Shown here piece after piece: positions 42,737 through 42,923 of a DNA stretch of 64,000 bases. Within the stretch, counting starts at the first letter, position 1. Each line of letters begins with the position of its first letter. The position numbers and the translations under genes are program-made. The notes under the pieces were generated by a model, which was given only the letters and a program-made list of their open reading frames with translations, was not told the DNA's origin and did not search any database. Source of the DNA: Biscogniauxia marginata (lineage: Eukaryota > Ascomycota > Sordariomycetes > Xylariales > Xylariaceae); the NCBI GenBank assembly GCA_022695795.1, contig MU404058.1:62001-126000 (forward strand), read 5' to 3'.

Positions 42737-42867
42737 GCCCGGTTAGCTCAATCGGTAGAGCGTGAGACTCTTAATCTCAAGGTTGCGGGTAAGTTATTCG
42801 TTCCAAGCTTGCGGGTTCAATTCAGTTTATTAATGTACATTCCCAGGTTCGACCCCCGCATCGGGCT
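42737..42867 (+). tRNA. tRNA-Lys(CUU) interrupted in the T arm by a GT-AG insertion
   Basis: The halves 42737-42788 and 42847-42867 join to a complete 73-nt tRNA: acceptor stem GCCCGGT paired with ATCGGGC (one G-U), D arm GCTC/GAGC, anticodon stem TGAGA/TCTCA with loop CTCTTAA (anticodon CTT, lysine), and T arm GCGGG/CCCGC with loop TTCGACC. The A box (TTAGCTCAATCGG) and B box (GGTTCGACCCC at 42846-42856) are intact. A 58-bp insertion, 42789-42846, splits the T stem. No second intron lies at the canonical 37/38 site. A T6 terminator-like run begins near 42913. If the insertion is not removed, the T arm cannot form and this would be a pseudogene. Confidence 0.85.
42789..42846 (+). other. 58-bp GT-AG intron-like insertion in tRNA-Lys
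   Basis: The insertion starts GTAAGTT, the preferred fungal 5' splice site, ends TTCCCAG, and has a TTAAT branch-like word about 17 bases before the end. Its length is within the range of the protein-gene introns here (43-92 bp). One base of ambiguity exists (boundary G shared). It contains a second copy of the tRNA's CAAG-TTGCGGGT segment at 42804-42816, matching 42778-42790 at 12 of 13 positions, and a B-box-like GGTTCAATTC at 42814-42823. Confidence 0.7.
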
Positions 42868-42907
42868 CAATTCCCGTTGCCTCACTGGTTACAGTGAGAG
42901 CCTCGAA

Positions 42908-42923
42908 ACCCTTCTTTTTTCTT
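42908..42923 (+). terminator. Possible Pol III terminator of the tRNA-Lys locus
   Basis: A T6 run lies about 45 bases past the tRNA 3' end within a pyrimidine-rich stretch. It is the first run of four or more T residues on the coding strand after the tRNA. Confidence 0.5.

Follow-up and report, generated by a model that had tools for sequence, protein, structure and literature searches.

Three of the five tRNA-Lys(CUU) loci in the genome of a Xylariales fungus are split at one bond of the T stem, between tRNA positions 52 and 53, by short inserts with GT-AG ends, and in two of the three the surrounding 73 tRNA bases are unchanged. On balance the inserts are best read as old spliceosomal introns in working tRNA genes, a reading that draws on the sequence of the loci and of the rest of the genome and that we hold with some, not great, confidence.

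The split tRNA-Lys(CUU) gene

The gene lies in a 64,000-nt stretch of DNA (the window) within contig C4 of a genome of 45.3 Mb in 229 contigs. A GH31 protein from the window shares 90% identity with a protein of Biscogniauxia sp. FL1348; further Xylariales follow among the best 120 of 4492 matches, and the organism is therefore placed in the Xylariales. The gene consists of two exons and one intron.

42737..42788, + strand: exon 1, tRNA-Lys(CUU) positions 1-52; same letters as two uninterrupted genes, coordinates checked
42789..42846, + strand: 58-nt intron GTAAGTT...CCCAG between tRNA positions 52/53; donor 6/6 to GTRWGT, acceptor CAG, one genomic place
42847..42867, + strand: exon 2, tRNA-Lys(CUU) positions 53-73; same letters as two uninterrupted genes, coordinates checked

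A letter-by-letter check agrees with the earlier note on this DNA, which had described the insert at 42789-42846 as 58 nt long, beginning GTAAGTT and ending CCCAG. Its removal does restore, as had been claimed, a perfect 73-nt tRNA-Lys(CUU), identical at 73/73 positions to uninterrupted genes on contigs C7 and C122. ARAGORN identifies the spliced 73-mer as tRNA-Lys(CTT) and reports no tRNA in the unspliced stretch, with or without its intron search. GGT is present at both ends of the insert, so that the placement of the junction is ambiguous and GT-AG is one of four registers yielding the same spliced product. The pattern GGTAAGT-N(40-60)-AGGTTCRANNCCNGC occurs across the genome only in the window gene and in a second gene on contig C177, and the reversed control of this pattern has no genome matches. 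The split tRNA-Lys(CUU) gene in the window is a real observation, and a stronger one than first described.

Five Lys(CUU) loci

A genome search with the spliced 73-mer yields five Lys(CUU) loci, designated here by contig: the window gene, C177, C69, C7 and C122. The last two (C7:30480-30552 and C122:86294-86366) are uninterrupted 73-mers, each identical to the spliced window gene and each scoring 70.3 bits with the Rfam tRNA model. The other three (3/5) are split at 52|53 by GT-AG introns, and the window gene is not a lone split copy. Both the window gene and C177 match the query over positions 1-54, the break at 54 corresponding to the 52|53 junction plus two shared bases, and exon 2 is likewise identical in both; the exons of four loci (window, C177, C7 and C122) are thereby the same. 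The C69 copy has 91% identity over positions 2-54 and is broken at the same place. An assembly chimaera was considered and rejected, since three separate contigs carry the same split arrangement.

Intron sequences and splice signals

The introns of the window, C177 and C69 genes are 58, 62 and 66 nt long, begin with GTAAGTT, GTAAGTT and GTCAGT, and have the acceptors CAG, AAG and TAG, respectively. Their donors match GTRWGT at 6/6, 6/6 and 5/6 positions. The C177 intron ends in AG but its acceptor is AAG and not YAG, which is a blemish for the spliceosomal reading. Branch candidates situated 6-36 nt before the acceptor match RCTRAY at 5/6, 5/6 and 4/6 positions in the same order, scores that are equalled by fractions of 0.54, 0.72 and 1.00 of shuffled introns; the donor and branch consensus used for scoring follows section 3.2 of PMC5832005. 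The candidate branch A of the window intron lies 13 nt before the last intron base.

42829..42834, + strand: best branch-site candidate ATTAAT, 5/6 to RCTRAY; about half of shuffles equal it, and it is weak

The yardstick consisted of the intron of the U6 gene and three protein introns (one GH31, two tubulin), located through homology and visual inspection; an automatic search of the window for protein introns yielded two clusters, neither convincing, and a list of tubulin candidates was too loose to add more. The lengths are 58 nt (GH31, in the window), 56 and 71 nt (tubulin, elsewhere in the genome, set by eye between matched exons) and 57 nt (U6), and the three tRNA introns fall within the 56-71 nt range of this small set of four. 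The insert had been described as having the same length as the protein-gene introns of the window; this holds for the GH31 intron, the sole one in the window that can be defined by homology. The U6 intron scores 6/6 for both donor and branch, and the protein introns score 5, 5 and 4 for the donor and 5, 6 and 6 for the branch. The absence of TTTT from the three tRNA introns and the U6 intron carries no information (joint chance 0.25). Predicted precursor folds pair the donor bases. The donors and lengths argue for the spliceosome as the probable agent of removal; the branch scores are no better than those of shuffles.

U6 and other small RNA genes

The only U6 match in the genome (C41:126374-126530; L057, minus strand, 1501-1657) contains an mRNA-type intron of 57 nt with GTAAGT, ACTAAC and CAG, located after ACAGAGAAGAT, and a B-box-like TATTCGAATCC is situated inside this intron. 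Fission yeast U6 also carries an mRNA-type intron, and the same source cites a title according to which U6 introns of Schizosaccharomyces contain a match to the B box (PMC10484740). By analogy, the U6 intron of this genome would be a precedent for spliceosomal removal from a Pol III RNA. No comparable intron is present in the two U3 genes of the genome or in its 17 5S rRNA matches, none of which exceeds 124 nt.

Exon constraint and intron history

Once the splice ends are excluded, the similarity between the window intron and the C177 intron does not exceed that of dinucleotide shuffles (p 0.63). When 3-kb loci are compared by blastn, the matches begin at most 4 nt 5′ of the tRNA and stop ~13-89 nt 3′ of it in all ten pairs. 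The exons of these two genes are unchanged at 73/73 positions, with no decay of the tRNA body. Selection on the exons is the simplest reading of this pattern, and it would need a spliced product. The C69 copy has changes at 10/73 exon positions and does not adopt a cloverleaf as its lowest-energy fold, and for these reasons it is probably dead; seven of its ten changes (locus L011) are G-to-A or C-to-T substitutions, the kind that repeat-induced point mutation would leave.

The C69 and C177 introns are weakly similar (shuffle p 0.02; 37/61 aligned positions) and their trailers match at 35/40 positions, which together suggest that the intron predates the separation of these two copies. The window trailer most closely resembles the one behind the uninterrupted C7 gene (35/38). 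Given this likeness, and that between C69 and C177, the history would involve either a single gain followed by loss or two independent gains at the same bond. Each of the two introns searched, those of the window and C177, occupies a single genomic place, which speaks against a recent insertion from a living source. A fresh insertion that created a pseudogene, the alternative raised in the earlier note, is a poor fit: the two introns searched are single-copy, the same bond is interrupted in three loci, and the exons have decayed in only one of the three.

An intron-like insertion could instead have broken an ancestral gene, its duplicates inheriting the damage, such that all split copies are dead and the two intact genes supply all of the tRNA-Lys(CUU). 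The intact genes could do so, which weighs against working split genes; their presence and the decay of one split copy (C69, with the ten exon changes described above) are part of what had been named as the marks of a dead insertion. TATA-like sites are situated upstream of both intact genes (at -56 and -48) and of 21/52 tRNA genes of the genome, and none is found within 80 nt upstream of any of the three split copies, a further point in favour of dead genes. A review gives insertions in the D or T arm of eukaryotic tRNA genes as lying mostly in one of many synonymous genes and as supposed pseudogenes, the exceptions being nucleomorph and red-algal cases (PMC4090602). However, dead copies would not be expected to retain 73/73 exon bases in the window and C177 genes while their introns and outer flanks have no significant alignment, and had an intact copy converted the whole gene, the intron would have been erased. 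We consider it unlikely that all of the split copies are dead. Working spliceosomal introns also have other points counted against them, namely the weak branch sites, the decay of C69, the pairing of donor bases and the lack of a comparable intron in the U3 genes and 5S matches.

Promoter boxes, flanks and trailer

The predicted promoter, trailer and terminator elements of the window gene are as follows.

42744..42755, + strand: TAGCTCAATCGG, tRNA positions 8-19, read from the sequence and taken by us to be the A box
42801..42820, + strand: T-arm-like stretch within the intron, 16/20 identical to tRNA positions 38-57
42814..42823, + strand: second B-box-like GGTTCAATTC within the intron
42846..42856, + strand: GGTTCGACCCC, read from the sequence and presumed, from the B-box consensus, to be the B box; its first G is the last base of the intron
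42858..42880, + strand: possible hairpin of the tRNA 3′ end GCATCGGG with the trailer CCCGTTGC; one mismatch in the window copy
42881..42898, + strand: second trailer hairpin CTCACTG-GTTA-CAGTGAG; 5/7 pairs changed on both sides in some loci
42915..42920, + strand: T run read from the sequence, probable Pol III terminator

The letters of the putative Pol III promoter (A box and B box) survive the split because the last G of the intron completes the B box, which reads GGTTCGACCCC in both the window and C177 genes. None of 500 single-base shuffles reaches the 16/20 match of the T-arm-like stretch, and this stretch is absent from the C177 and C69 introns.

A structured two-hairpin trailer (window 42858-42898) is present in 5/5 Lys(CUU) loci (the window gene, L002, L003, L009 and L011). 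Downstream of the intact genes the T run begins at 37 and 42 nt, compared with a median of 8 nt for 50 other tRNA genes, of which 3/50 have a distance of at least 35 nt. A role for the trailer as a splicing aid was considered, but the intact genes carry it too and it is not specific to the split copies.

The intact A and B boxes, the second B-box-like site in the window intron and the conservation of both trailer hairpins in all five loci would also be expected if the split genes bind TFIIIC or yield an RNA that stays unspliced and serves some other function, for example at a chromatin boundary, the boxes being kept and the product not being a tRNA. We regard this as improbable, as selection on the boxes only would not preserve all 73 exon bases.

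Bulge-helix-bulge motifs and other origins of the inserts

The split site at 52|53 is not the site of the eukaryotic nuclear tRNA endonuclease at 37/38. Across the four registers the best central helix has 3/4 pairs in the window intron and 2/4 in C177, and shuffled introns reach at least three central pairs in 2326/3000 cases (window) and at least two in 3000/3000 (C177). Among the 18 canonical introns of this genome used as controls, 15/18 reach at least three central pairs (best of three registers) and 17/18 have all three outer pairs. A bulge-helix-bulge intron was rejected for the window and C177 genes, their pairing in four registers being not above that of shuffles, and by its known rule the tRNA endonuclease is unlikely to remove these introns. 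A noncanonical intron cut by the endonuclease, as in archaea, nucleomorphs and Cyanidioschyzon, has in its favour that T-arm introns of this kind are known (PMC4090602) and that many introns of the Guillardia theta nucleomorph are without a defined bulge-helix-bulge motif (PMC3978253). It is nevertheless quite improbable here: shuffles commonly reach the central pairs found in the two introns, the canonical controls mostly show the motif, and GTAAGTT would be left unexplained.

Introners are known in some fungi, and GGT flanks the inserts (AGGT at C69) as short target duplications would, but derivation of the inserts from repeats, introner-like or other mobile elements is very improbable and was rejected for the window and C177 introns, which have a single place each, no near-identical copies elsewhere in the genome and no significant similarity to one another.

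Screens of other tRNA genes

Splits of other isotypes were sought with the Rfam model (63 of 1528 candidates were scored, and 60 of them matched at an E value of 10 or less) and with two patterns. Five weak Rfam matches were read by eye, and none is a GT-AG split of the T arm. A wider split pattern has five genome matches, two of them the known genes and three yielding no tRNA after removal of the presumed intron; its reversed control has three matches. ARAGORN names 52 tRNA genes in the genome with no Pro or Trp gene among them, and the tRNA list and the screen of other isotypes are therefore incomplete. Two pattern scans of viral contigs gave no matches, and a search for plasmids found none. 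Locus L069 (C179:30050-30400) has a tRNA-like sequence followed by about four tandem copies of a T arm (B box). Two further tRNA-like loci, L070 (C26) and L073 (C189), are alike by eye beyond the tRNA part and are possibly a tRNA-headed SINE.

A proposed spliceosomal route for tRNA-Lys(CUU)

The earlier note had proposed a spliceosomal intron in a Pol III tRNA gene. The proposal is partly supported, by the donors, the lack of a bulge-helix-bulge in the two introns tested, the recurrence at one site, the intact exons of two loci and the U6 intron, and from these we infer transcription, spliceosomal removal and use of the product. With odds a little better than even, in our estimate, the Lys(CUU) family with its common spliceosomal site at 52|53 comprises functional nuclear tRNA genes in which the spliceosome joins the two parts of the T arm.

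Under the proposed mechanism the window locus would be a nuclear gene for tRNA-Lys(CUU) that carries a U2-type spliceosomal intron between T-stem positions 52 and 53. Pol III would use the intact A and B boxes, with the first G of the B box supplied by the last base of the intron. The spliceosome would excise the intron from the primary transcript, much as happens with U6 precursors in fission yeast, and the joined exons would take the usual tRNA-Lys(CUU) fold. The site of the intron would be an old one, occupied in three of five paralogues and with the exons held constant in two while the introns drifted. Two things may make the intron tolerable: its last G restores the B box, and the spliceosome of this lineage may accept Pol III RNAs, to which the U6 intron points.

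If this is true, tRNAs could also mature by way of the spliceosome, a route that splicing control might regulate, and two splicing systems treated as separate would be joined. U6 would then not be the only structured Pol III gene that spliceosomal introns can invade and remain in, and the family, whose intact paralogues can act as controls, would offer a tangible case for testing how introns are gained in non-coding RNA. Gene finders for tRNA can miss such genes, ARAGORN being silent at the window locus.

Comparison with known systems

By the standard description, a dedicated endonuclease and ligase splice nuclear tRNAs, and mostly at a single site. Among the papers listed by searches of the open-access literature, none describes a nuclear tRNA gene with a spliceosomal intron; the accessible text of the tRNAscan-SE 2.0 paper treats noncanonical introns in archaea and does not contain the stem 'spliceosom' (PMC8450103).

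Canonical 37/38 introns also interrupt nuclear tRNA genes, but they differ in site and signals and, in the 18 controls of this genome, in length (9-30 nt compared with 58-66 nt). The T-arm introns of archaea, nucleomorphs and Cyanidioschyzon likewise interrupt a tRNA in its T arm, the archaeal sites including 53/54 (PMC4090602). However, those of archaea and Cyanidioschyzon have a bulge-helix-bulge and are cut by the tRNA endonuclease, whereas the window and C177 introns have a GTAAGT donor and a motif not above chance, and those of nucleomorphs are 3-24 nt long. Fungal U3 snoRNA introns similarly interrupt a structured small RNA at one preferred site, and section 3.2 of PMC5832005 records intron-bearing and intronless paralogues together within one genome, in eight genomes; the host is not a tRNA, and the U3 introns of paralogues are almost always very similar (PMC5832005), unlike those of the Lys(CUU) genes. 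Fungal U6 introns share with the Lys(CUU) introns a short GT-AG form and a Pol III small RNA host in a fungus, but in the Lys(CUU) family the interrupted RNA is a tRNA, which brings its own internal promoter, the intron sits in the T stem, and some paralogues are split and others are not.
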